This document shows positions 1,507-25,322 of a stretch of 64,000 bases of DNA, in pieces. The notes under the pieces were generated by a model. The model saw nothing but the letters and a program-made list of their open reading frames with translations. It did not search any database and was not told the DNA's origin. The position numbers were made by a program, and so were the translations under genes. The DNA is from Streptomyces roseirectus (GTDB taxonomy: Bacteria > Actinomycetota > Actinomycetes > Streptomycetales > Streptomycetaceae), in contig NZ_CP060828.1 of the NCBI RefSeq assembly GCF_014489635.1, positions 2,766,001 through 2,830,000 on the forward strand. Reading direction: 5' to 3'. The first letter of the stretch is position 1. Each line of letters starts with the position of its first letter.

Positions 1507-2275
1507 GCTTGACAACCTTGTTGGTGAGTGTGCCGATACCTTCGATGGTGACGGCGACCTCGTCGCCGATCTCCAGGGGGCCGACCCCGGCGGGGGTGCC
1601 CGTGAGGATCACGTCGCCGGGGAGGAGTGTCATGGCCTCGGTGATGTTGACGATCAGGTCCTCGATGGGGGTGATCATCTCGCTGGTGCGGCCGAGCTGG
1701 CGCTGCTGGCCGTTGACCGTGAGCTGGATCGTCAGGTCGCCGGGGTCGAGGTCCGTCTCGATCCACGGGCCGAGCGGGCAGGAGGTGTCGAAGCCCTTCG
1801 CCCTCGCCCACTGCTTCTCGCGCTTCTGGACGTCCCTCGCGGTGACGTCGATCGCGCAGGTGTAGCCCAGGATGACGTCCTTCACCCGGTCCCTCGGGAC
1901 CTCCCTGCACATCCTGCCGATGACGACCGCGAGTTCGGCCTCGTGGTGGACGTCCGTGGAGAAGGTGGGGTACTGGATGGCGTCGCCGGGGCCGATCACC
2001 GAGGTCGACGGTTTGAAGAAGGCGAAGGGGGTGTCCGGGACCTCGTTGCCCAGTTCCTTCGCGTGGTCGGCGTAGTTGCGGCCGAACGCGACGACCTTGT
2101 TGGGCAGGACGGGGGGCAGCAGCCGGACCTTGCTCAGCGGGACCTTCGTCCCGGAGAGCTCGAACTCGGTGAACGGGATGCCCTTGATGATGTCGAGGAC
2201 GAGTTCGTCCTCCTTCTCCCCCTCGACCGCGCCGAACGCTACGTTGCCGTCGATGGAGAACCTGGCGATACGCAC
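1499..2275 (-). CDS. Fumarylacetoacetate hydrolase family protein
   Basis: 258-residue protein of the FAH fold, a family of metal-dependent hydrolases, decarboxylases and isomerases acting on 2-oxo acids or diketo acids such as fumarylpyruvate, acylpyruvates or oxaloacetate. Visible motifs are FGRNYADHAKELG, the acidic metal-binding stretch around EAELAVVIGR, DVTARDVQ, and the C-terminal GTPAGVGPL loop. The open frame extends far upstream to 2737, but that part is proline- and alanine-rich low-complexity translation. The true start is set by the GTG at 2275, which has AGGA about 6 bases upstream and begins VRIARFSIDG, the normal N-terminus of the family. It lies directly upstream of gltX, overlapping its start, in a two-gene unit. 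The exact substrate cannot be read from the sequence. Confidence 0.93.
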   Translation of the reverse strand: MRIARFSIDGNVAFGAVEGEKEDELVLDIIKGIPFTEFELSGTKVPLSKVRLLPPVLPNKVVAFGRNYADHAKELGNEVPDTPFAFFKPSTSVIGPGDAIQYPTFSTDVHHEAELAVVIGRMCREVPRDRVKDVILGYTCAIDVTARDVQKREKQWARAKGFDTSCPLGPWIETDLDPGDLTIQLTVNGQQRQLGRTSEMITPIEDLIVNITEAMTLLPGDVILTGTPAGVGPLEIGDEVAVTIEGIGTLTNKVVKRD

Positions 2276-2714
2276 GGGATCCTCGTGCCCCTCTGAACCG
2301 ACCGAAATCTGACGCCCCAGGCTAACGTGCGCGGCCTGGCGGGGGCTCGCGGAATGCCGGGGGGCGGGGTGGCTGGGCCGGGGAGGGGTGTGAGGTGCGG
2401 GTTCGGTGGGCGGGGTGGAGGTGGTCGAGGGCTGGGGGTGTGGGGTGTCTGCGGGCAGCGGGGGCTGGGGTGGGGGCCTTGTCGCTCGCCCGCGCCGGCG
2501 GGGTGCCGCTGCGCCCACCCGTGCCGCCAGGGGGTACCCCCTGCTCGAAGAGCTCGGGGGAGACACGACTGCCCGCAGCTGGGGCGGAGGGGGCGGGTGC
2601 GGGTTAGTGGGGGGGGCGGCGCGGCTGGCCGTAGCTGGGTGGGCGGCGGTAGCCGAGTGCGGGTGGGTGGGGGTGGCGCGGCTGGCCGCGGCCGGGGGAA
2701 GTCGGGTGGGTGGC

Positions 2715-2734
2715 GTCCCGCCGAGTGGTGTAGC
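2715..2734. repeat. Left copy of a 20-bp inverted repeat pair
   Basis: GTCCCGCCGAGTGGTGTAGC is the exact reverse complement of bases 2886-2905, with 151 bases between the copies. The element GACACC/ACTCGGCGGGAC looks like a small dispersed intergenic repeat rather than a transposon end, because no transposase lies between the copies. Confidence 0.7.
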
Positions 2735-2885
2735 CATGCCGGCCGTGTGGCTCCGCTCAGGGTCGAGACGGCGCCGGCCGGCTCGTGCGGCCGCAACGCG
2801 TGCTGCTCGCGGGCGTAAGCACCCCGATCCGGTGCCGAGGCGAACGCGTCGGCCAATTGACGTGCGGAGTCAAGAGCCCTGCGCC

Positions 2886-2905
2886 GCTACACCACTCGGC
2901 GGGAC
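2886..2905. repeat. Right copy of a 20-bp inverted repeat pair
   Basis: GCTACACCACTCGGCGGGAC, perfect inverse match to 2715-2734. The enclosed 151 bases carry no gene. The pair could fold into a long-range stem in RNA. Confidence 0.7.
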
Positions 2906-3013
2906 ACCAGCGTCGGGTGCGGGTGAGTGGTGGGGTGTGGAAAGGGCGCCTCCTGGGGGAAGCGCCCTTGGATATGTGCGCCGGGGGTGAGTGGGCGGCG
3001 GGGTTGGGGCGTA

Positions 3014-3181
3014 TTACTCCGCGGCCGCTGTTTCCGGGGTGTCCATGAGGATGGTGCGGCGGGGGTTGGCGGTCTGGGTGGGGAGGTCGGTGGGGTGGGT
3101 TTGGGGGGTGGGGTGCAGGTCGACGGCGTCCTTGAGGTGGGCCAGGGTGGTGCGGCGGGGGTTGGCGATCTTGCGGGACAT
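3014..3181 (-). CDS. Hypothetical 55-residue peptide with duplicated ANPRRT motif
   Basis: I do not recognise this gene. The ATG at 3181 has GGAG about 9 bases upstream and opens a 55-codon frame beginning MSRKIANPRRTTLAHL. The motif ANPRRT followed by one residue and leucine occurs twice (about residues 6-13 and 38-45), separated by a proline/threonine/histidine-rich linker; the tail is acidic (DTPETAAAE). There is no signal peptide, membrane segment or cysteine. The duplicated motif could be a recognition sequence on a small substrate protein or a modified-peptide precursor, but no modifying enzyme lies nearby. A longer frame reaches 3295 but lacks a good ribosome site. It is divergent from conservon 1 and upstream of nothing obvious. 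Confidence 0.55.
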   Translation of the reverse strand: MSRKIANPRRTTLAHLKDAVDLHPTPQTHPTDLPTQTANPRRTILMDTPETAAAE

Positions 3182-3741
3182 CGTCGTCGTCTCCACGGTC
3201 GTGTCGGATATGCCGAATCTGTAAAGCGTCAGGCTAAACATGGCATTCCCGGGGAAGTCACGGAGGGTGGGACGGGTGGGTGTGAGTTTGCTCACGGGAC
3301 AGCCGTCAAACCGGTCAATTCAGGCCCGCAAGTGAACGTAATGAAACGGACATTGGTCGAGTGAAGCACTCATTCCGCTCCTGATCATGGCGACTGGGAC
3401 ACCTTGATCGAGAGACCGGTTCGGGGGGAGTTGGGGCAGTTTAGGGGGATAGAAATCTACGGGTGGTGAGCGGTGGCGTACGCGCCGTCACGGATGTCAC
3501 AGCCCGGCCAACAAGCCTTGTTGGAGATCCGGCACTGTGCTGGAATCTCACGGACCGCCGCGGGATCGAGCCGGCGCGCAGGGGGCGCACAGAAGCGCCG
3601 AGTGGCGGCGAGATAGGGGGAACCAGCGCCGGGTCACTCAACGACCATCCCGGGGGGCGTATTTCAGGGCGCCCCTCACAGACGCCGACACCGCCTGTCC
3701 GTTCACTCGGAAAGGCGCCTGGTCCAGAGGTTGCGACGCTA
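3182..3741. other. Divergent intergenic region upstream of conservon 1
   Basis: About 560 bases between the small minus-strand peptide gene and cvnA1. The plus frame stays open through much of it, but codon pattern and lack of conservation-type motifs argue for leader DNA. It holds a near-perfect palindrome at 3508-3524 (listed separately). I could not assign promoter hexamers with confidence. Confidence 0.5.
3508..3524. promoter_or_regulatory. Palindrome CCAACAAG-C-CTTGTTGG upstream of cvnA1
   Basis: Perfect 8-bp inverted repeat around a single C, 218 bases before the cvnA1 start. Such a compact palindrome is more like a dimeric regulator operator than a terminator. The regulator is unknown. 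Confidence 0.4.
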
Positions 3742-6700
3742 GTGCAGGGACGATTCAAGAGGGACGGCAGTGCCCCGGCAGGGCCGGAGCCGCGCGGCGG
3801 GACTGGCGCCAACACGGTCAGCTCCTCCCCCCAGCACGCCCAGAACCCGGGTTCCCCCACCCAGGCAGGCGACGGCAAGAGCCGACCCGGCGGCGGCCCC
3901 ACGGCCCCGCTGACCCCCACCGCCGTCCCCCCGATACCCCCGGTCAAGGCGGCCAAGGGCGACACCGGCAACCGCGTCGCCCTGCGCAACTGGCGTATCT
4001 CCACGCGTCTCGTCGCCCTGCTGACCCTCCCCGTGGTCGCGGCGACCACCCTCGGCGCGCTGCGTATCAACCAGTCGATGGAGGACATCCAGCAGCTCGA
4101 CAACATGCGGCTGCTGACCGACATGACGAAGCAGGCGACCGAGCTGTCGATCGCCCTGCAGAACGAGCGCGACCGCTCGGCCGGTCCCCTCGCCCACGGC
4201 GGCGGTGCGAACGACATCACCGTCAAGGGCCTGCGCGCGACGACCGACCGCTCGCTGGACTCCTTCGTCAACGCGTCCGAGGAGATCGACGCCACCAGCC
4301 GCAACGGCAACCTCCAGGGCGTCCGCGACAACCTCGTCGGCCTGGTCGGCGACCTCGGCAACCTGGCGAAGCTGCGCTCGACGGCGTACACGGCGTCCGG
4401 CAACTCGATGCAGACGGTCGAGGGCTACCACCGGCTGATCAGCCGCCTGGTCGACCTGTCCCAGGACATGGCCGAGGCCACCTCCAACCCGGAGATGATC
4501 CAGCGCACCCGCGCCCTGGCCGCGTTCTCCTCCGCCAAGGAGTACTCGTCGATCCAGCGCGCCGTCCTGACGGCCGCGCTGCCCACGAACAGCACCACCT
4601 TCGGCGACCTCAGCGACAACGACCGCAACTACGGTGAGACGGCCGTCGAGGGCGAGGACTCCGAGCTCGCGATCTTCCGCTCGATCTACGGCAGCGAGGG
4701 CGCCGAGTCGCTGCTCAAGCCGATCGAGTCGGGCAACGCGACGATCAAGGAGGCCGACGAGTACGCGGGCCGCGCGTTCGCCTCCAAGAGCGGTCTTGAG
4801 TCGCAGGACAAGCGGTCCTACCAGGACTGGCTGGACGCCTCGGGCACCAAGCTCCAGCAGATGAAGAACATCGAGTCGCAGCTCCTGGAGGACATGGAGC
4901 AGAAGGCCCGTGAGCTGCGCAACGAGACCGAGCGCGACGCGATCATCTCCGGTGTCCTGATCCTCCTGGTGCTCGGCGTCTCGCTGGTCGGCGCGTTCGT
5001 CGTCGCCCGGTCCATGATCCGCTCGCTGCGGCGCCTCCAGGAGACGGCCACGAAGGTCGCCCAGGAACGCCTGCCCGAGCTGGTCAAGCAGCTCTCGGAG
5101 TCGGACCCGCAGGACGTCGACACGTCCGTCGAGTCGGTCGGTGTGCACTCCCGGGACGAGATCGGCCAGGTGGCCGCGGCCTTCGACGACGTGCACCGCG
5201 AGGCCGTCCGGCTCGCCGCCGAGCAGGCCCTGCTGCGGGGCAACGTCAACGCGATGTTCACCAACCTCTCGCGCCGCTCCCAGGGCCTCATCCAGCGTCA
5301 GCTGTCGCTCATCTCCGAACTGGAGTCCCGCGAGGCCGACCCGGACCAGCTGTCCTCGCTGTTCAAGCTGGACCACCTCGCGACCCGTATGCGCCGGAAC
5401 GGCGAAAACCTCCTCGTCCTCGCGGGTGAGGAGCCCGGCCGGCGCTGGACGCGTCCGGTGCCGCTGGTCGACGTGTTGCGTGCCGCCGCGTCCGAGGTGG
5501 AGCAGTACGAGCGGATCGAGCTGGCGTCGGTGCCGACGACGGAGGTCGCGGGCCGGGTCGTCAACGACCTCGTGCACCTCCTCGCCGAGCTGCTGGAGAA
5601 CGCCACCTCGTTCTCGTCGCCGCAGACCAAGGTCAAGGTCACCGGTCACGCGCTGCCCGACGGGCGGGTGCTGATCGAGATCCACGACACGGGTATCGGC
5701 CTCTCCCCCGAGGACCTGGCCGCGATCAACGAGCGGCTGGCCTCGCCGCCGACCGTGGACGTGTCGGTGTCCCGGCGCATGGGTCTGTTCGTGGTCGGCC
5801 GGCTCTCCCAGCGGCACGGCATCCGCATCCAGTTGCGGCCCTCCGACTCCGGTGGCACGACCGCGCTGGTCATGCTGCCGGTCGATGTCGCGCAGGGCGG
5901 CAAGAAGCCGCAGCCGAAGCCCGGTCAGGGCGGCGCCCCGGCCGGTGGTCCGGCCGCCGCGCAGGCCGCCGCCGGTGCCGCCGCGGCCCGCCGTCAGAGC
6001 GGGCAGGGCGGTCAGGGCGGGCCGCAGGCTCCCGGCGCGTTCGGGAGTGGTCCGGCCGGTGTCGGCGCGCCCGGCAAGGGCGGCAACTTCGGCTCCGGGC
6101 CCGGTGGTTCGGGGTCCGGCGGTGCGTTCGGGGACTCCGGTGCCTTCGGCGGGTCCGGCGCGTTCGGCGCGGGTCCGGCCGGCAACGGCAACGGCAACGG
6201 CGGGTTCGGTGCGGGTCCCGGGGGCGGTGCCCTCGGTGGCGGTCCACGGACCGCGCTGCCCGGACGGGACGGCGCTCCGGCGCGCGGTCAGCAGCAGGGC
6301 GGGCGGCCGTCGGCTCCCGCGCCCGCCGGTACCGGCGCGTTCAACGGGCTCCAGGCCGCTCCCCCGCAGGGCCAGGACATGTTCGGCGGCGGTACGCGTC
6401 CGCCGCGCGGCAAGGACGGCCAGGGCGAGCAGGGTCGCGGCCGGCAGCCGCAGCTCCCGGCGCGCGGTGGTCCCCGTGCCGAGCTGCCGGGCGGCAACCC
6501 GCCGCCGCGCACGCCGAGTTGGGGCGACGACAGCGCCCGCACGCCGGCGCTGGACGCGCCGCGTGGGCACGACGAGCCGGAGGTGGCGCGCACCTCGCAG
6601 ATGCCGCGCGTCGAGGGTCCCGGCTCGACCGCCGAAATACCCAGGATCGACGCGGACTTCGGGCGGCCTGGCACCGGTCAGGCGCCCAACTCCGGCCAGC

Positions 6701-7626
6701 AGACGGGGCAGTTCCCCGCGCTGGGCGCGCCGCAGCCGCAATCGCCATCGCAGGGCAACGGCAACCGGCGCGGCGTCCAGGACGACTTCCAGGCGACGAG
6801 CCAGTTCCCGGCGCTCGGCGCTCCGCAACAGGGCGACGGCCAGGGCCAGTTCGGGCGTCCGGGGCACAACCCGCTGGACAACGGCGGGCAGTTCCAGCGG
6901 CCGGACGTGTTCGGGACCGGCCAGCAGCCGACCGCACCGCAGTCGAACGCGCAGCAGTCGGGCGCGCCTCAGCACAGCACGCCGTCGCAGCACAGCACGC
7001 CGCAGGCGGGCGCGCCCCGTCAGGGGTACGACGGTTCGTCGACCGGGCAGCACGCGCTGCCGGGGGCGCGGGCCAACGGGTACTCCGCCCGGCCGGAGCC
7101 GGAGGCGCTGCCGCCGGCCGGTCCCGGGGACGGGCGTACGCCGCTGTACGACACGCTGGAGACGAACTGGTTCCACCAGCAGGGCGGCCAGGTCCAGGGT
7201 GCGCAGGGTGTGCCGCAGCAGCCGCAGGCCCAGGCACCGGCTCCGGCGGCCACGCCCGCTTCCGCGCCGTCGGCTCCTACGTCGTCGTCCGCGCCGTCGG
7301 CTCCGCAGCGGCCGGCCGCCTCTCCGGCGTCGTCGTCGTGGCGGTCGACGCCCAATGACGAGCTGGTCCGGCAGGCCGAGCGGGTGCGGCAGCCCGCGTC
7401 GGGCGGGATCACGACGTCCGGTCTGCCGCGCCGGGTGCCCCGGGCGAACCTCGTGCCGGGCACCGCACAGCAGCAACAGCATCAAACGGGTCCGCAGGTC
7501 TCGCGCGCGCCGGACGACGTGCGCGGCCGGCTGACCAATCTCCGTCGGGGCATCGCTCAGGGCCGTCAGGCCGGGAGCGGTCAGACAGACAGCTTCCCGA
7601 GCCCCACTCACCAGCAGGAGCGTTAG
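3742..7626 (+). CDS. cvnA1: CvnA-type nitrate/nitrite-sensing-domain histidine-kinase-like protein (conservon 1)
   Basis: Large membrane sensor, 1294 residues, first gene of a conservon. Order: Pro/Gly-rich N-terminus (1-80); transmembrane segment about 88-106; extracytoplasmic helical region of the nitrate/nitrite-sensing type; second membrane segment about 400-422; HAMP linker; helical FxLDHLATRMRRNGENLLVL segment; HATPase domain about 606-713 with N-box ELLENATSFSSP and G-box HDTGIGL; then about 500 residues of Gly/Pro/Gln/Ala-rich disorder. The C-terminus ends in a conserved block (GLPRRVPRANLV, then RAPDDVRGRLTNLRRG). The GTG at 3742 was preferred because it gives the familiar VQGRFKRDGS start with AGAGG upstream; earlier starts extend into apparent leader sequence. 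The stop touches the cvnB1 start. Conservon proteins form a membrane complex likened to eukaryotic G-protein signalling. Confidence 0.93.
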   Translation: MQGRFKRDGSAPAGPEPRGGTGANTVSSSPQHAQNPGSPTQAGDGKSRPGGGPTAPLTPTAVPPIPPVKAAKGDTGNRVALRNWRISTRLVALLTLPVVAATTLGALRINQSMEDIQQLDNMRLLTDMTKQATELSIALQNERDRSAGPLAHGGGANDITVKGLRATTDRSLDSFVNASEEIDATSRNGNLQGVRDNLVGLVGDLGNLAKLRSTAYTASGNSMQTVEGYHRLISRLVDLSQDMAEATSNPEMIQRTRALAAFSSAKEYSSIQRAVLTAALPTNSTTFGDLSDNDRNYGETAVEGEDSELAIFRSIYGSEGAESLLKPIESGNATIKEADEYAGRAFASKSGLESQDKRSYQDWLDASGTKLQQMKNIESQLLEDMEQKARELRNETERDAIISGVLILLVLGVSLVGAFVVARSMIRSLRRLQETATKVAQERLPELVKQLSESDPQDVDTSVESVGVHSRDEIGQVAAAFDDVHREAVRLAAEQALLRGNVNAMFTNLSRRSQGLIQRQLSLISELESREADPDQLSSLFKLDHLATRMRRNGENLLVLAGEEPGRRWTRPVPLVDVLRAAASEVEQYERIELASVPTTEVAGRVVNDLVHLLAELLENATSFSSPQTKVKVTGHALPDGRVLIEIHDTGIGLSPEDLAAINERLASPPTVDVSVSRRMGLFVVGRLSQRHGIRIQLRPSDSGGTTALVMLPVDVAQGGKKPQPKPGQGGAPAGGPAAAQAAAGAAAARRQSGQGGQGGPQAPGAFGSGPAGVGAPGKGGNFGSGPGGSGSGGAFGDSGAFGGSGAFGAGPAGNGNGNGGFGAGPGGGALGGGPRTALPGRDGAPARGQQQGGRPSAPAPAGTGAFNGLQAAPPQGQDMFGGGTRPPRGKDGQGEQGRGRQPQLPARGGPRAELPGGNPPPRTPSWGDDSARTPALDAPRGHDEPEVARTSQMPRVEGPGSTAEIPRIDADFGRPGTGQAPNSGQQTGQFPALGAPQPQSPSQGNGNRRGVQDDFQATSQFPALGAPQQGDGQGQFGRPGHNPLDNGGQFQRPDVFGTGQQPTAPQSNAQQSGAPQHSTPSQHSTPQAGAPRQGYDGSSTGQHALPGARANGYSARPEPEALPPAGPGDGRTPLYDTLETNWFHQQGGQVQGAQGVPQQPQAQAPAPAATPASAPSAPTSSSAPSAPQRPAASPASSSWRSTPNDELVRQAERVRQPASGGITTSGLPRRVPRANLVPGTAQQQQHQTGPQVSRAPDDVRGRLTNLRRGIAQGRQAGSGQTDSFPSPTHQQER

Positions 7627-14574: not shown

Positions 14575-14632
14575 TTCGTCGTGCTCCCCTGCCACACTCG
14601 TCTCCCAGGGGGTGTTTCCCAGGGGGTGGGGC

Positions 14633-17600
14633 ATGAGCGTCGAAGTGGCCGCCGTGCGGCTCGGGCAGACCGTCGCGACCAGTGCCGTGCGGCTGTGGCT
14701 CGGCGGACGCCGGACCGAGCAGGAACGCCGGGCCGGGATGGGCGAGTTGATCCGACTCCGGGTGCCGGGGCTGCGTGCCCGGCGGAGTGTGGAGCGGCAG
14801 TTCGAGGAGATCGCGGACGCGGTGGCGGCGCGCGTGGAGCCGTTGCTGGCCCACGAGTTCGCGGGGCTCGCGGAGAACGAACGGCTCGCGGCGGTGCAAG
14901 CGGTGACCGACACCTTCGGCCGGGCCGACCTCTCCGACGCGTCGGTGTTCGAGTCCGACGCGGATCCGGTGGAGCTGGAGCGGCGGATCCGCAGCGAGGT
15001 GCCCCGGCCCGCGGGGCTCGGTGAGGCCGCCGAACGCTACTACGACACGTTGTTCGCGGAGTGCTGCGACTGCTACGTACGGATCCTGCGCCGACTGCCG
15101 GTCTTCACCGAGCGCGCGGTGAGCGAACTCCTCTCCCGCACCACGTCGTTGGGGGCGGAGCTGGCCCGGGTGCTGGAGCGGCTGCCGGTGCGGTCGCTGT
15201 ACGCGCCGGACGGGTCGGACGAGGACGCCGGGTTCCTGCGGGAGTACCTGGGGCTGGTCAGCCGCTCGCTGGACGAGGTGGAACTGTTCCAGGCGGCCTC
15301 GGAACGGCCGCCGCGCACGAAGCTGTCGGTGGCGTACGTGAGTCTGCGCGCCTCCGGGGACCACGTGACGCGCCCTCGCTCGCTGCCCCGGCACGGTCTG
15401 CGTGACTGGCAGGAGTCCGAGGGCACCGGCATGCGGGTGGAGGCGGCGCTGGCCGGCGCCTCCCGGGTGCTGTTACGGGGCGAAGCGGGCTCCGGCAAGA
15501 CGACCTTGATGCAGTGGCTGGCCGTCATGGCCGCCCGGGGCGGTTTCTCCGGCTCGCTGGAGAGCTGGAACGGCCTGATCCCCGTCCTGGTCAAGCTGCG
15601 CCGCTACGCGGGCCGTCCGCTGCCCGCCCCGGAAGCCCTGCTGGACGGCGTCGCCGGTCCCCTCACCGGGCACCTGCCCAAGGGCTGGATGGATCGTGCG
15701 CTGCGGGACGACCGTGTCCTGCTGCTCGTCGACGGGGTGGACGAACTCCTCGCCGACGAACGCCGGGCCGTGCGGGAGTGGTTGCGGGGGCTGCTGCTCG
15801 CCTATCCCGGCGTCCGGACCATCGTGACCTCACGGCCGTCCGCCGCCCGCACGGACTGGCTGCGCGCGGAGGGGTTCGTCTCCTTCCAACTGGACCGCAT
15901 GGCCCCGGCCGACCTGACGGCGTTCGTCCGGCAGTGGCATCGGGCCGTGCGGGAGCAGGGGGACGAGTTGCCCTGTGCCGTGGAGGAACTTCCCACGTTC
16001 GAACGGGCGTTGCTGACGAGCCTGCGGGACCGGCCGCACCTTCGCTCCCTCGCCGCGAACCCGCTGCTCGCCGCGCTGATCTGCGCCCTGCACCTGCTCA
16101 AGGGGGACCAACTCCCCCGCAACCGCATGGAGTTGTACGCCATCGCGCTGGAGACGCTGGTGCAGCGGCGGGACGCGGACCGGCGCGTGCCCAGCGCCCT
16201 CGCCTCGCCGCTCGGGCTGCCGGACAAGCTGTGTGTGCTGCGGAACCTCGCCTGGCGGCTGTCCGACAACAACCGTACGGAGATCGGGGTGGAGCAGGCC
16301 GTACGGTTCGTGTCGGCGCGGCTGGCCACCATGCGGCACCTCGACGGGGTGCCGGGTGACGACGTCCTGGACCACCTGATCGCCCGGTCCGGGGTGCTCC
16401 GCTCGCCCGTCGAGGGCCGCGTCGACTTTCTGCACCGGACCTTCCAGGAATACCTCGCCGCCCAGGACGCGGCCGACGAGGACAACATGGGGAACCTGGT
16501 CGGGCGTGCGCATCTCGACCTGTGGCGGGAGACGATCGTGATGGCCGCGGGGCACGGGAATCTGCGGCAGCGGCGGGAGTTGGTCGGCGGGATCCTCGAC
16601 CGCGCGGAGGCGGAGCCTCGGTATCGGCGCCGGCTGCGGCTGTTGGCGGCTTCGTGTCTGGAGACGATGCGTACGGTGCCCGGCGAGGTGGTCGGGCGGC
16701 TGGACGAGGCGATGGAGACGCTGTTGCCTCCTCGGCGGGAGTCGGAGGCGGTGTCGTTGGCGGCGGTGGGGCCGCCTCTGGTGCCGTGGTTGCCCAAGTC
16801 CTTGGAGGGCCTGACTCCCAAGGCCGCTCGCCAGACGGTTCGGGCGGCGGCGCTGGTGGGGGGTGCGGCGGCGATGGAGCGGTTGGCGGGGTACGTCGGC
16901 GCCGGTGTTCATGACGAACTGGTCGACGCCTGGGAGTACTTCGATCCCGACGAGTACGCGGAGACGGTACTGGCGAAGCTCCGGCTGGAGAGGCGGCCTG
17001 TCAGAGTGCAGCATCCCGCGCAGTGGCCCGCGCTGACCCGGCTCCGGCATGCGCGTCACGTCCACATCAGGTACGGGTTCACACACGGATTAGGTGCCGT
17101 CCGAGCACTCGGCGACCTGGAAACGCTCTGGATCACACACCTGCTTGAGGACAACGACCTTTCACCGCTGCGGAAGTTCACGGCCCTCAGAAACCTGGTT
17201 CTCTGTCGCGACGACGTCCTGCCCTTGGTGGACTTGGGGCCGCTGAGCGACCTGACGAAGCTCACCAACCTCCAGTTGCAGGACTGGGGTTCACTGCCCA
17301 GCCTGGAGAACATTCCGGCGTTGGAGAGGCTGACAAGCCTGGGGCTGGGCATGCTCGACTCCGACGACGACCTCAGTCCCCTGGCCGGACACCGTCGCCT
17401 GCAGTGGCTCTTGCTTCAGGGCCGCAGCATCCCTCGTGGGCTCGACAGCCTGGCAGCCCTCGGCGATCTGACGAGTCTGGAACTGCACCACTTCGACCTC
17501 ACCCGATGGCTGCCCTCCGCCGCCTACCCCCCTGGGCTCCGCAGGCTCGGTCTCCACGGCACCGTGCTGCCCGCCGACCTGTCACCCGTCGGGACGATCC

Positions 17601-17767
17601 AGGGGTTGCGGGAATTGGACCTGCATTATTGCCGCACACCTGATGGATCACGCCCCGCCCTGCACACCCTCGCCCGAAGCCCGGACCAGCCCAAGCTGGT
17701 CGTCACCGTCGGCCGAGGTGCACCCCGCCCCACCGACATCCCCGGCGTCCAGGTCAAATACCGCTGA
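14633..17767 (+). CDS. NACHT NTPase with N-terminal helical domain and C-terminal leucine-rich repeats
   Basis: 1044-residue STAND ATPase, a bacterial NLR-like protein. An all-helical N-terminal domain (about 1-210, MSVEVAAVRLGQTVATSAVR...) resembles the NNH-type effector or adaptor domains found on bacterial NACHT proteins. The NACHT domain has Walker A GEAGSGKTTLMQW (about 282-292), Walker B VLLLVDGVDEL (about 362-372), sensor-1-like TIVTSRPSA and an FLHRTFQEYLAAQD winged-helix motif. A leucine-rich region covers about 800-1035 (LGDLETLWI, LRNLVLC, LTNLQLQDW). Bacterial NACHT proteins of this kind have been shown to act in phage defence; whether this one does is inference. The ATG at 14633 has a G-rich site upstream. 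It is flanked by terminators on both sides, so it is monocistronic. GC3 is slightly lower in the LRR part. Confidence 0.9.
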   Translation: MSVEVAAVRLGQTVATSAVRLWLGGRRTEQERRAGMGELIRLRVPGLRARRSVERQFEEIADAVAARVEPLLAHEFAGLAENERLAAVQAVTDTFGRADLSDASVFESDADPVELERRIRSEVPRPAGLGEAAERYYDTLFAECCDCYVRILRRLPVFTERAVSELLSRTTSLGAELARVLERLPVRSLYAPDGSDEDAGFLREYLGLVSRSLDEVELFQAASERPPRTKLSVAYVSLRASGDHVTRPRSLPRHGLRDWQESEGTGMRVEAALAGASRVLLRGEAGSGKTTLMQWLAVMAARGGFSGSLESWNGLIPVLVKLRRYAGRPLPAPEALLDGVAGPLTGHLPKGWMDRALRDDRVLLLVDGVDELLADERRAVREWLRGLLLAYPGVRTIVTSRPSAARTDWLRAEGFVSFQLDRMAPADLTAFVRQWHRAVREQGDELPCAVEELPTFERALLTSLRDRPHLRSLAANPLLAALICALHLLKGDQLPRNRMELYAIALETLVQRRDADRRVPSALASPLGLPDKLCVLRNLAWRLSDNNRTEIGVEQAVRFVSARLATMRHLDGVPGDDVLDHLIARSGVLRSPVEGRVDFLHRTFQEYLAAQDAADEDNMGNLVGRAHLDLWRETIVMAAGHGNLRQRRELVGGILDRAEAEPRYRRRLRLLAASCLETMRTVPGEVVGRLDEAMETLLPPRRESEAVSLAAVGPPLVPWLPKSLEGLTPKAARQTVRAAALVGGAAAMERLAGYVGAGVHDELVDAWEYFDPDEYAETVLAKLRLERRPVRVQHPAQWPALTRLRHARHVHIRYGFTHGLGAVRALGDLETLWITHLLEDNDLSPLRKFTALRNLVLCRDDVLPLVDLGPLSDLTKLTNLQLQDWGSLPSLENIPALERLTSLGLGMLDSDDDLSPLAGHRRLQWLLLQGRSIPRGLDSLAALGDLTSLELHHFDLTRWLPSAAYPPGLRRLGLHGTVLPADLSPVGTIQGLRELDLHYCRTPDGSRPALHTLARSPDQPKLVVTVGRGAPRPTDIPGVQVKYR

Positions 17768-20511: not shown

Positions 20512-20636
20512 TAACCGGTCGTCGAATCGGTCGTCCGGGGCAGTTTCTGTCTCTTCCTGGCAATCGGAACCAACTGTGACTCTTGGGTCGTATTCCGGGC
20601 ATCACCCAGGCTCGGAACCACGCACCGGGAGGCAGC

Positions 20637-21716
20637 TTGAGCAAGATGTCAGGTCCGCAGAACTACCCCGGCGCGGACCGGGGCCACTGGTACCAGACGA
20701 AGTACGGCGGCAGCTCGATGGAGGTCAACGTGGTGGTCCTCCATACGACGGAGGGCCGCAGCCTCCCCGACTACCAGGGCGGCGCCTCCGCCCCCAACCT
20801 CACCGCGCTGCCCGACCTGGCCGCGAAGAAGCTCCGCTGGTACCAGCACTTCCAGATCGACGTCTCCTCGCGCGCCCTGGTCAACTCCCCCGGCGGCGTC
20901 CAGACGAACACGCTGAACGTGTGCCAGGTGGAGCTGGTCGGCACCTGCGACCCCGAACTGCACGGCAAGTGGAAGGCGAACAACACCCCGCACCTCTACT
21001 GGCCGCAGGCCCCCGAGTGGGCGCTGCGCGAGGTCGCCCGCTTCCTGTCCTGGATGCACCACCAGCACGGCGTCCCGCTCAGGGGCCCCTCGTCGTGGCC
21101 CTCGTACCCCACGTCGGCCGGCAACCGGGGCGGCCAGCGCATGAGTCACGACCGCTGGAACGGCTTCCGGGGCATCTGCGGCCACATGCACGTCCCCGAG
21201 AACTGCGTCCACCCCGACACCCCCGTCCTGCGCGCCGACCTCACCTGGCAGCGGGCCGGCGATCTCCCGGTGGGCGCCGAGATCGTGTCGTTCGACGAGG
21301 ACGACGCCCCTGACGCCCCCCGGGTCTTCCGCACCGCCACCGTCACCCGCAACGAACCCGGCGTGAAGGGCTCGTACCGGATCACCACCCCCGACGCCGA
21401 GATCACCGCCACCCACGACCACCCGTGGCTGGTCCGCGCGGACGGCCGGATCGCCTGGGTGCCGAGCAAGGAACTCGACCCCTTCCGGCACCGCGTGCTG
21501 CGGGCGCTGCCCACGAGCGGCTGGGAAGGCGCCCCCGTCGCCGGGGCGGGTGACACGGCCGTCCTCGGGGTCGAGTACGTGGGTGAGCGGCCCATCGCGT
21601 CGTTGTCGACGAGTACGCGGACATACGTGGCCGGTGGGCTGCTCTGTCACAACACCCATGGGGATCCGGGGTCGATCGACTTCGAGACGCTGATCAGGTT
21701 CGCCAAGGGGGCGTGA
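20637..21716 (+). CDS. N-acetylmuramoyl-L-alanine amidase-type protein interrupted by a mini-intein
   Basis: 359-residue precursor. Residues 1-189 and 340-359 read as one zinc amidase (peptidoglycan recognition fold): VVVLHTTEG gives the first metal His (H36), GHMHVPEN (H183/H185) the second, and THGDPG (H341/D343) the terminal active-site motif. Between PEN and THGDPG lie 150 residues with all features of a splicing Hint domain (separate entry). Removal would join PEN to THGDPG and give a 209-residue amidase. The TTG at 20637 sits 4 bases after GGGAGG; an ATG at 20646 is in frame and 13 bases away. There is no signal peptide, so export is unexplained. No phage genes are nearby. Target is presumably peptidoglycan stem peptides, by family. 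Confidence 0.88.
   Translation: MSKMSGPQNYPGADRGHWYQTKYGGSSMEVNVVVLHTTEGRSLPDYQGGASAPNLTALPDLAAKKLRWYQHFQIDVSSRALVNSPGGVQTNTLNVCQVELVGTCDPELHGKWKANNTPHLYWPQAPEWALREVARFLSWMHHQHGVPLRGPSSWPSYPTSAGNRGGQRMSHDRWNGFRGICGHMHVPENCVHPDTPVLRADLTWQRAGDLPVGAEIVSFDEDDAPDAPRVFRTATVTRNEPGVKGSYRITTPDAEITATHDHPWLVRADGRIAWVPSKELDPFRHRVLRALPTSGWEGAPVAGAGDTAVLGVEYVGERPIASLSTSTRTYVAGGLLCHNTHGDPGSIDFETLIRFAKGA
21204..21653 (+). other. Mini-intein (Hint domain) within the amidase gene
   Basis: Encodes residues 190-339 of the amidase product, exactly 150 residues. Block A begins at the N-terminal nucleophile Cys1 (CVHPDTPVL). Block B is ITATHDHPWLV with the TxxH pattern (T68, H71 of the intein). The C-terminal blocks F/G read YVAGGLLCHN with penultimate His149 and terminal Asn150, followed by Thr as the +1 extein nucleophile. 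The middle is too short for a homing endonuclease, so this is an endonuclease-less mini-intein. Every residue needed for splicing is present. The insertion point falls between metal-ligand motifs of the host amidase, where precise splicing would be needed for activity. Confidence 0.85.
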
Positions 21717-22949: not shown

Positions 22950-23054
22950 GGGTGCGGGTGCCTTCCGGAGGGGGGTGGTTGTTGTCGTCAGGGTGCCGTG
23001 GTGGTGTGCGGTGAGGTCAAGCCAATTACCGGGTGCGGGCGGCAGAATGGGGGG

Positions 23055-25322
23055 ATGCGCGGGGATCACATCGATTTCGGGGGCGCGACCTTCTACGGGC
23101 CGGTGTACGGGAAGGTCAAGGGCGGGGTCGTGGCGGTGCCGGTGTCGACGCTGCCCGGGGCGCCCGAGGGGTTCACCGGGCGGGAGAGGGAAGTCGCCGC
23201 CGTGCTGGGGGCGTTGGGGCGGGAGCGGGTCGTCTCCGTGTCCGGGCTCGCGGGGGTGGGGAAGACCGCGCTCGCCGTGGCCGTCGCTCATGAGGCGCGG
23301 GGGCGGGGGATGTTTCCCGGAGGTGTGCTGTTCGTCGATCTTCGAGGGTACGACGAGGTTCCCGTGAGCGCGGAGCAGGCCGTGTCGTCGTTGCTGCTGG
23401 CGCTCGGGGTGCGGGAAGGGGAGTTCGCGCGGTACCGGAGTGAACTGGCGTCCCGTGAGGCGATGTTGGTCGTGCTCGACAATGCGGGCGGGAGTGAGCA
23501 GGTGGTGCCCCTGCTGCCCGGGGAGGGAGCCGGGCATCGGGTGTTGGTGACGTCCCGGGACGTGCTGGATTCGTTCGCCGTGGGGTCCGTGGTGGTGGAG
23601 GCGTTGTCGGTGGGGGCCGGTGTGGAGTTGGTGGGGCGGGTGTTGGGCGGGGATCGGCGGGTTTCCGAAGAGGGGGGTGCCGTACGGGAGTTGGTGGAGG
23701 TGTGTGGGCGGTTGCCGTTGGCATTGGTGATCGTGGCGGCGTTGTTGCGGCGGCGACGGGGGCTGGGGGTCGGGGAGTTGGTGGCGGAGTTGAGGGGGGC
23801 GCGGGATCGAGTCGGGGCGTTTGTGGCGCGTGGGGTGGATCAGTACGGGAGGTCGCTTGTGTTGCGGCCGGTTTTTGATGCGATGTACCGGAGGTTGGGG
23901 GTGGAGGCGGCTCGGGTTTTCGGGGTGTTGGGGCTCGCGCCGGGGGAGGTGATCCGGGCGGATGTGGGGCGGGTGTTGGCGGGGGTGGGTGAGCGGGAGT
24001 GGGGGGTGGTTGTTGATGATTTGGTTGCTGCTTCGTTGTTGAGTGTGGTGGGGGGTGGTGGGGAGGGGTGGCGGATGCATGACTTGGTGCGGGTTTATGC
24101 GGCTTCTCGGGTGTCGGGGGAAGTGGCGGAGGAGGCCAAGAAGGCTTTGCTGCGCTTCTATTCGGTTCAGCTGGAGGCGGCCGACGCGGTCATCGAGAAC
24201 CCCAACGTCCTGCTGCGGGAGATGTTTCCCGGTGGGCAGGAGGAGGCTTTGGGGTGGTTCGAGACTGAGCGGACGGGGTTGATCAACGCGGTGTCGTGGG
24301 CCGAGGGGGGTGATGCGCGGACTGCGGTTCTCGTCCTGCGTCTCTCCCGCACCCTCATACCTCGCCTGGGCGCGTATCGGGCCCTCGACGATGTGACCAG
24401 GGTTTCGGGGATCGCCAGGGACACGGCACGGCGGCTGGGGCGACCGCTTGACGAAGCAGCCGCGTTGGGAGGTCTCGCCTTCCTGCTGACGGAGTTGCGC
24501 AGGTTCGACGAGGCGATCGGCGTCTGGCAGCAGGCGCTGAACCTGCAAGACGGTGCCCCGATAGGGCAGGCCAAGGCATGGAGTTACATGGCGGCCACGC
24601 TGAGCGGCCTGGGCAGGTTCGACGAGGCAATCGACACCTGCGCGAAGAGTCTGCGGTACCACCTCACGCTGGACGACCGGCCCCAAGTGGCCACCACCCG
24701 AGCCCAGTTGGCGATGGTGCTCGCCGAGAGCGGGCGGCTCGACGAGGCGTGCGCCATGTCGTACCAGGCGGCCACCGAGTTCGAACAGCTCGGCATGGCA
24801 CGTGAGTTGGCAGATTCTCTGCACAACTTGGGCAATGGCCTGCGACTCCTCGGCCGCCCGGCGGAAGCGCTGCCGCACATCGTCCACTCCTTGCGGATCC
24901 GGATCGAACTCAACGACTGGCGCTACAAGACGAACACCTGGATTGTCCTCGGTTTCCTCTTCCTCGACCTAGGCCAGCCCGACAGAGCGTTGCGGGCATT
25001 CACCCGCACCCTGGACTGGAGCGCTCTCCTCGGGGACAAGTACCAAGCGGCTGTGGCCTGGGCGAATATCGGCACCGCCCTGGGCAACCTGAAGCGATAT
25101 CGCGAGGCGGTCGATGCCTGCGGAACGGCCATCGAACTCGGTGCCGCCCTCGAAGAATGGCGGATCGTCGGCGCCGCGCACTTCGCAATGGGCTCAAACC
25201 TGTTCCGGAAGAAACGGAAGCGGGATGCCACCCGTTCCTTCCAAGCCGCCGCCGACGCCTACGAACGCGCCGGCATGTCCGAAGCGGCAGCCAACATGCG
25301 GGAGTTGGCAGACGGGTCGTAA
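23055..25322 (+). CDS. NB-ARC ATPase with tetratricopeptide repeats (AfsR/STAND-like, no DNA-binding domain)
   Basis: 755-residue STAND protein. It begins with a short beta motif (GDHIDFGGATFYGPVYGKV) seen at the N-terminus of many actinomycete STAND proteins. Then comes NB-ARC with Walker A GLAGVGKTALA (about 64-74), Walker B MLVVLDNAG (about 137), VLVTSRD, CGRLPLAL and an MHD-like RMHDLVRVYA (about 340). TPRs follow from about 430 to the end (RRFDEAIGVWQQALN, GRFDEAIDTCAKSL, GRPAEALPHIVHSL, KRYREAVDACGTAI). No OmpR or BTAD domain is present, so it is not a SARP. The part encoded by about 23550-24150 uses unusual codons for this genome (TTG, GTT, GGG, GAT). The 3' end overlaps the convergent anti-sigma-like gene by 64 bases. 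Confidence 0.88.
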   Translation: MRGDHIDFGGATFYGPVYGKVKGGVVAVPVSTLPGAPEGFTGREREVAAVLGALGRERVVSVSGLAGVGKTALAVAVAHEARGRGMFPGGVLFVDLRGYDEVPVSAEQAVSSLLLALGVREGEFARYRSELASREAMLVVLDNAGGSEQVVPLLPGEGAGHRVLVTSRDVLDSFAVGSVVVEALSVGAGVELVGRVLGGDRRVSEEGGAVRELVEVCGRLPLALVIVAALLRRRRGLGVGELVAELRGARDRVGAFVARGVDQYGRSLVLRPVFDAMYRRLGVEAARVFGVLGLAPGEVIRADVGRVLAGVGEREWGVVVDDLVAASLLSVVGGGGEGWRMHDLVRVYAASRVSGEVAEEAKKALLRFYSVQLEAADAVIENPNVLLREMFPGGQEEALGWFETERTGLINAVSWAEGGDARTAVLVLRLSRTLIPRLGAYRALDDVTRVSGIARDTARRLGRPLDEAAALGGLAFLLTELRRFDEAIGVWQQALNLQDGAPIGQAKAWSYMAATLSGLGRFDEAIDTCAKSLRYHLTLDDRPQVATTRAQLAMVLAESGRLDEACAMSYQAATEFEQLGMARELADSLHNLGNGLRLLGRPAEALPHIVHSLRIRIELNDWRYKTNTWIVLGFLFLDLGQPDRALRAFTRTLDWSALLGDKYQAAVAWANIGTALGNLKRYREAVDACGTAIELGAALEEWRIVGAAHFAMGSNLFRKKRKRDATRSFQAAADAYERAGMSEAAANMRELADGS

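Follow-up and report, generated by a model that had tools for sequence, protein, structure and literature searches.

A class 1 mini-intein has most probably become fixed in a cell-wall amidase gene of Streptomyces roseirectus. The gene lies on the forward strand of a 64,000-nucleotide stretch of contig NZ_CP060828.1 (positions 2,766,001 to 2,830,000; hereafter the window). We put at roughly 0.87 the probability that it encodes a stand-alone chromosomal, endolysin-like N-acetylmuramoyl-L-alanine amidase, as predicted, and that the insert interrupting it is a class 1 mini-intein descended from a full-length LAGLIDADG-type intein. Positions 21204-21653 encode exactly 150 residues, from C1 to H149-N150 and followed by Thr, as the original prediction had it; their removal would join HVPEN to THGDPG and leave a product of about 209 residues (359 - 150, counted from the presumed TTG start at 20637). 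From the homologues, it was evident that these borders are exact. A whole-protein search found 1426 database relatives, and 102 of the 120 listed read HxxEN-X-HxDPG uninterrupted, with the PEN-type and HxDPG parts contiguous; the remaining 18 (P0002-P0018 and P0026) carry an insert.

The residues expected of a splicing protein recur throughout the 34 intein rows compared (Table 1). The pattern applied to these rows required C1, HN and S, T or C at +1, with block B outside it, and dropped none of them; earlier motif patterns used on the relatives had left the +1 position open. The residue found at +1 is S or T in every row, while the 102 intein-free proteins have V, D, T, L, E, Q, A, N or K there, with T in 11 and S in none (Fisher p 8e-23, which is only indicative because the sequences are related). 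Block B is present as proposed, though not at TATH, where it had been placed: the window reads I-T-A-T-H-D-H-P-W, and since relatives read SADH, TADH, SYDH and TYDH, it is T70 and H73, within THDH, that are conserved. The predicted model of the insert has the intein (Hint) fold, and the recurring splice residues together with this fold confirm that the insert is more than a chance resemblance. In 31 of the 34 rows the terminal His-Asn follows directly on a Cys (CHN); P0128, P0129 and P0135 have Met there instead.

The host was identified through several lines of comparison. It matches the endolysin family PHROG 1493 in a profile search (E 7e-11), and the fold of its model matches AmpD and endolysins. 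The modelled AmpD/PGRP-like fold comes with conserved His, Glu, His and Asp residues, whose functional roles we assume by analogy: His33 is presumably a metal ligand as in AmpD, Glu96 presumably catalytic as in AmpD-type amidases, and the ligands of the predicted metal site would be completed from the C-extein. The Amidase_2 profile (PF01510, gathering score 26 bits) has no match in the window protein and scores 16.6 bits in P0024 and 12.9 in P0044; among same-site relatives P0126 (35.9) and P0127 (32.4) pass, and P0128 (23.1) and P0129 (24.7) fall below. Searched by sequence against solved structures, the host alignment found no match, and the insert only chance-like matches to a photosynthetic reaction centre subunit. 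The start LS.MSGPQ is common to the window gene, P0003 and the loci of S. acidiscabies (L035) and S. niveiscabiei (L036), which supports the TTG at 20637.

Table 1. Features of the interrupted amidase gene (window coordinates; His33 numbered from the ATG at 20646)
Feature	Position	Strand	Basis
Likely ribosome-binding site, GGGAGG	20627..20632	+	read directly
Amidase precursor gene, probable TTG start, 359 residues + stop	20637..21716	+	
N-extein, 189 residues, endolysin-like, Amidase_2/AmpD fold	20637..21203	+	PHROG 1493 and fold matches
His33, predicted first metal ligand	20742..20744	+	nearly invariant, 50 sequences
Glu96, predicted catalytic residue	20931..20933	+	invariant, 50 sequences
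His180-Met-His182, invariant His pair at intein -7 and -5	21183..21191	+	conservation, 50 sequences
Mini-intein, 150 residues, C1 to N150	21204..21653	+	
Cys1, predicted first nucleophile	21204..21206	+	34/34 rows
Block B, Thr70-His-Asp-His73	21411..21422	+	[ST]xDH in 34/34 rows
Approximate scar where the LAGLIDADG-type domain was lost, between intein residues of about 101 and 102	21504..21509	+	alignment with 264-267-residue inteins
His149-Asn150, predicted C-terminal cleavage residues	21648..21653	+	34/34 rows
+1 Thr, predicted second nucleophile	21654..21656	+	S/T in 34/34 intein rows
C-extein THGDPG..., 20 residues + stop	21654..21716	+	
His338, predicted to complete metal site with Asp340	21657-21659	+	
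Asp340, predicted to complete metal site with His338	21663-21665	+	

The relatives of the insert place it in the history of a mobile element. Searching with the full-length intein of P0008 returned 41 proteins, 29 with the intein at the endolysin site (30 with P0014, from the whole-protein search) and 12 with it elsewhere, among them Mu-type portals, nicotinate phosphoribosyltransferase, ribonucleotide reductase, RNA ligases, one protein with PF01555 (which we take to be a methyltransferase family) and five without an assigned host name. At the endolysin site there are full-length inteins of 259-269 residues with an AGxxDxDG motif, shortened ones of 228-233 residues with a decayed endonuclease (P0006, P0009, P0012) and minis of 146-164 residues. 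The full-length forms make up 23 of the 34 rows (22 of 34 in a slightly different set), and the motif occurs in 24 of 34. The best score for Pfam LAGLIDADG_3 in endolysin-site proteins is 21.5 bits, under the cut-off of 22.5, so that the endonuclease call rests on the motif and weak profile matches. Full-length inteins in P0005, P0008, P0011 and an endolysin-type gene of a viral contig (L045) share the insertion point before [ST]H.DPG and the same splice residues; the window form differs in lacking the LAGLIDADG-type domain, and we found no published description of them. The residues before the insert vary in P0132 and a few others (PAPD, VPDN, VIEN). P0129 (259-residue intein) and P0135 (162-residue) have near-identical N-exteins, pointing to a recent loss of the endonuclease.

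Intein and host do not share one tree. In a careful tree of 42 N-exteins, with long-branched rows left out, intein presence takes 5 changes, a count that cannot separate gain from loss; a single clade of all intein bearers is rejected (approximately unbiased test, p-AU 9e-8), as is a single clade of minis (p-AU 0.001), and one full-length row groups with five minis of the window's set (support 97/91). This row is P0005 in a wider quick tree (85 rows, with long branches; support 85), where 8 changes, again of either direction, are needed and 3 are forced by well-supported branches. The inteins of P0011 and P0123 are 77% identical and their N-exteins 37%, while P0011 and P0014 show the reverse (46% and 70%), which means that intein and host have had separate histories. 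Among phages, the best 40 of 243 records by cover x identity in a search with the whole P0008 protein included no named phage with an endolysin-borne intein; only 31-34% was covered, corresponding to the amidase part. The intein alone matched 138 records, and the 40 listed were 17 portal and 23 terminase genes. Relatives stand at each stage of the homing cycle, with orthologous empty sites and transfer between distant hosts. With its kin empty, full and mobile, or stripped down, the window intein looks like a mobile element minus its mobility part. Same-site inteins also occur in stand-alone amidase genes of S. cupreus (L037, decayed) and S. olivaceus (L039, full-length), at other chromosomal places among genes that look ordinary by eye.

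Among 392 sampled Streptomyces genomes 72 gave some match, and all 56 places at E 1.8e-43 or better were read, the weaker ones (Hint-like parts and fragments only) being outside the count. One gene copy, the window's own, carries the intein, and the site is empty in the other 55 (the strict motif identifies 52 of these, a looser motif 3). No second intein-bearing copy was found among the 61 nearest genomes, which overlap this sample. Three weaker places (L031-L033) are related inteins or remnants elsewhere: L031 (about 1963-3198) has a fragment (ENCVHPDARIL...) without an amidase host, an apparent remnant, and L033 (1236-3350, minus strand) has a related intein that carries a LAGLIDADG-type motif and sits in another protein, one resembling P0138.

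The window amidase is flanked by genes for propionyl-CoA carboxylase, YceI and a GNAT protein, and the same arrangement, GNAT included, is found in S. acidiscabies and S. niveiscabiei, both with a mini-intein at the same place. At all five intein-free loci of a species collection (L040-L044), YceI and propionyl-CoA carboxylase genes lie close to the amidase, as they do in the window; of 29 intein-free loci read with short flanks, 13 also show YceI nearby. A prophage location was considered and rejected given the ordinary neighbours and the arrangement kept in the two other species. The shared neighbours and orthologous empty sites instead indicate a chromosomal gene with no prophage sign around it. 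Two other genes lie near the amidase: a long P-loop nucleoside triphosphatase with leucine-rich repeats, NACHT-like by eye (14612-17767), for which PADLOC reported nothing, and an NB-ARC/TPR-like protein (about 23000-25322), for which it gave only weak TPR matches.

If the insert splices as a class 1 intein, Cys1, aided by block B, would attack the Asn(-1)-Cys1 bond, the N-extein would pass to Thr+1, and Asn150 would cyclise with His149 assisting. Ligation of the exteins as HVPEN-THGDPG would then bring the third predicted ligand, Asp340, beside the second, His180, so the precursor is probably inactive. The ancestor was probably a full-length LAGLIDADG-type intein that homed into genes of the endolysin type, phage and chromosomal alike, at this position and later lost its endonuclease. 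Since then the intein has probably persisted passively in the amidase, since only a precise deletion would be tolerated and an intein that stopped splicing would disable the enzyme; passive retention is the simplest account of its function. According to a review, inteins occupy conserved positions, active sites among them, where they are less readily deleted (PMC7765530).

The original prediction went further and proposed a conditional switch. Its intein identification is borne out by the splice residues in 34 of 34 rows, the modelled fold and the empty sites; the switch remains a proposal. In such a switch, which we regard as improbable, a condition such as zinc, oxidation or stress would slow or stop splicing and so control the amidase. 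It would suit an intein lying between predicted metal-site residues. There are also precedents: splicing of mycobacterial DnaB is reversibly inhibited by zinc, and splicing-dependent activation tracks closeness to the active site (PMC7360933), while in Mtu SufB splicing is aided by N-extein His at -5 and -38 (PMC8891592); in the amidase of the window, His residues stand at -5 and -7. However, with 55 of the 56 sampled copies free of the intein, those copies do without such a switch, and passive persistence explains the pattern, insertion into active sites being usual (PMC7765530). Slightly less probable still is a metal-coupled form: ahead of splicing, the conserved His at -5 and -7 would bind a metal next to Cys1 or let it go, and zinc or redox state would time the maturation of the lytic enzyme. 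If true, the coupling would guard a domesticated endolysin with a safety catch that works after translation, and the same His would serve the amidase once splicing is complete.

Several observations weigh against a splicing class 1 mini-intein of this descent. Block F reads TRTY, where some full-length relatives have THTY (His to Arg), and no Asp occupies the usual place in the window intein, Ser and Arg standing at the likely positions. Block F Asp and His are common but not universal in class 1 inteins; the altered block could slow splicing. The profile search proposed earlier gave a divided answer: NF038136 (NCBIfam) is the best library profile on the insert (E 2.6e-8), but TIGR01445 (intein_Nterm) reaches 20.4 bits against a cut-off of 24.5, and Pfam matches nothing in the window protein or the insert. 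TIGR01445 has no match over the genome at E 0.001, which does not show that other inteins are absent, because the profile misses the window intein too. Splicing and its chemistry are predictions, and the ancestor's homing activity is likewise presumed, with DNA cutting read from the motif alone. Estimates of selection come from three genomes only (window, L035, L036). The ratio of nonsynonymous to synonymous divergence (dN/dS) of the intein is well under 1: 0.28 for window-L035, 0.35 for window-L036 and 0.26 for L035-L036 (upper bounds 0.45, 0.55, 0.47). The N-extein gives 0.31, 0.29 and 0.68 (the last from few changes, upper bound 2.6). Intein dS in the same order is 0.53, 0.37 and 0.22, that of the N-extein 0.19, 0.19 and 0.04, and that of the neighbours 0.22, 0.21 and 0.15 (propionyl-CoA carboxylase), 0.25, 0.25 and 0.09 (YceI) and 0.34, 0.34 and 0.11 (GNAT). 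The intein value is thus about 1.9-5.1 times that of the N-extein, 1.5-2.5 times that of YceI and propionyl-CoA carboxylase and, less clearly, 1.1-2.1 times that of GNAT. Possible reasons for this excess are that codon selection acts less strongly on the intein or that its alleles have been exchanged.

The altered block F and raised dS would also fit a decaying intein that has lost splicing and leaves a dead amidase or cleavage products only. So would the same-site allele of Actinacidiphila oryziradicis (L038, about 6522-7322), whose apparent frame shift inside the decayed endonuclease region makes it look broken, or reflects a sequencing error. We think decay of the window intein quite unlikely, as its frame is open, the splice residues are kept in all 34 rows (L038 being outside the set) and dN/dS is low in all three pairs. 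That the insert is an ordinary, non-splicing Hint-like domain native to the protein (bacterial intein-like or Hedgehog type) is very improbable in view of the seamless empty sites, the +1 Thr or Ser, the His-Asn end and the same-site relatives bearing LAGLIDADG motifs.

Several known systems come close to this arrangement. The Gordonia phage portal and Mycobacterium phage terminase inteins are related to the full-length form from end to end (35% and 32% identity) but occupy other sites in other proteins. The Rv2578c-family radical SAM intein (NF038136) has a different host, and its 700-bit whole-protein cut-off is not reached. The Synechocystis DnaB mini-intein (1mi8, 6frh; 18-19% identity) sits in a helicase, and AmpD and Amidase_2 endolysins (2y2b/2y2c, 9htu; 12-13% identity) have no intein. 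Endolysin genes of staphylococcal phages such as K and G1 contain self-removing introns (PMC5526547); these act at the RNA level and in other hosts. Among the 10 to 20 papers listed per literature search, of up to 259 matching, no title or abstract opening dealt with an intein located in an endolysin or in an amidase of the cell wall; most subscription journals and all bioRxiv preprints lay outside these searches, so that such an intein may have been described there. PMC3314691 states that 224 mycobacteriophage endolysins include not one with an intron or intein in it.

With the window gene and its relatives, the range of intein hosts comes to include peptidoglycan amidases like those of phage endolysins, and at a single site the homing cycle is represented by empty, full, decaying and stripped forms across a viral contig and bacterial chromosomes. 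Because the amidase assay is simple and splicing should complete the metal site, the system would allow a clear test of whether a mini-intein now unable to spread is kept as a passenger or as a control element.
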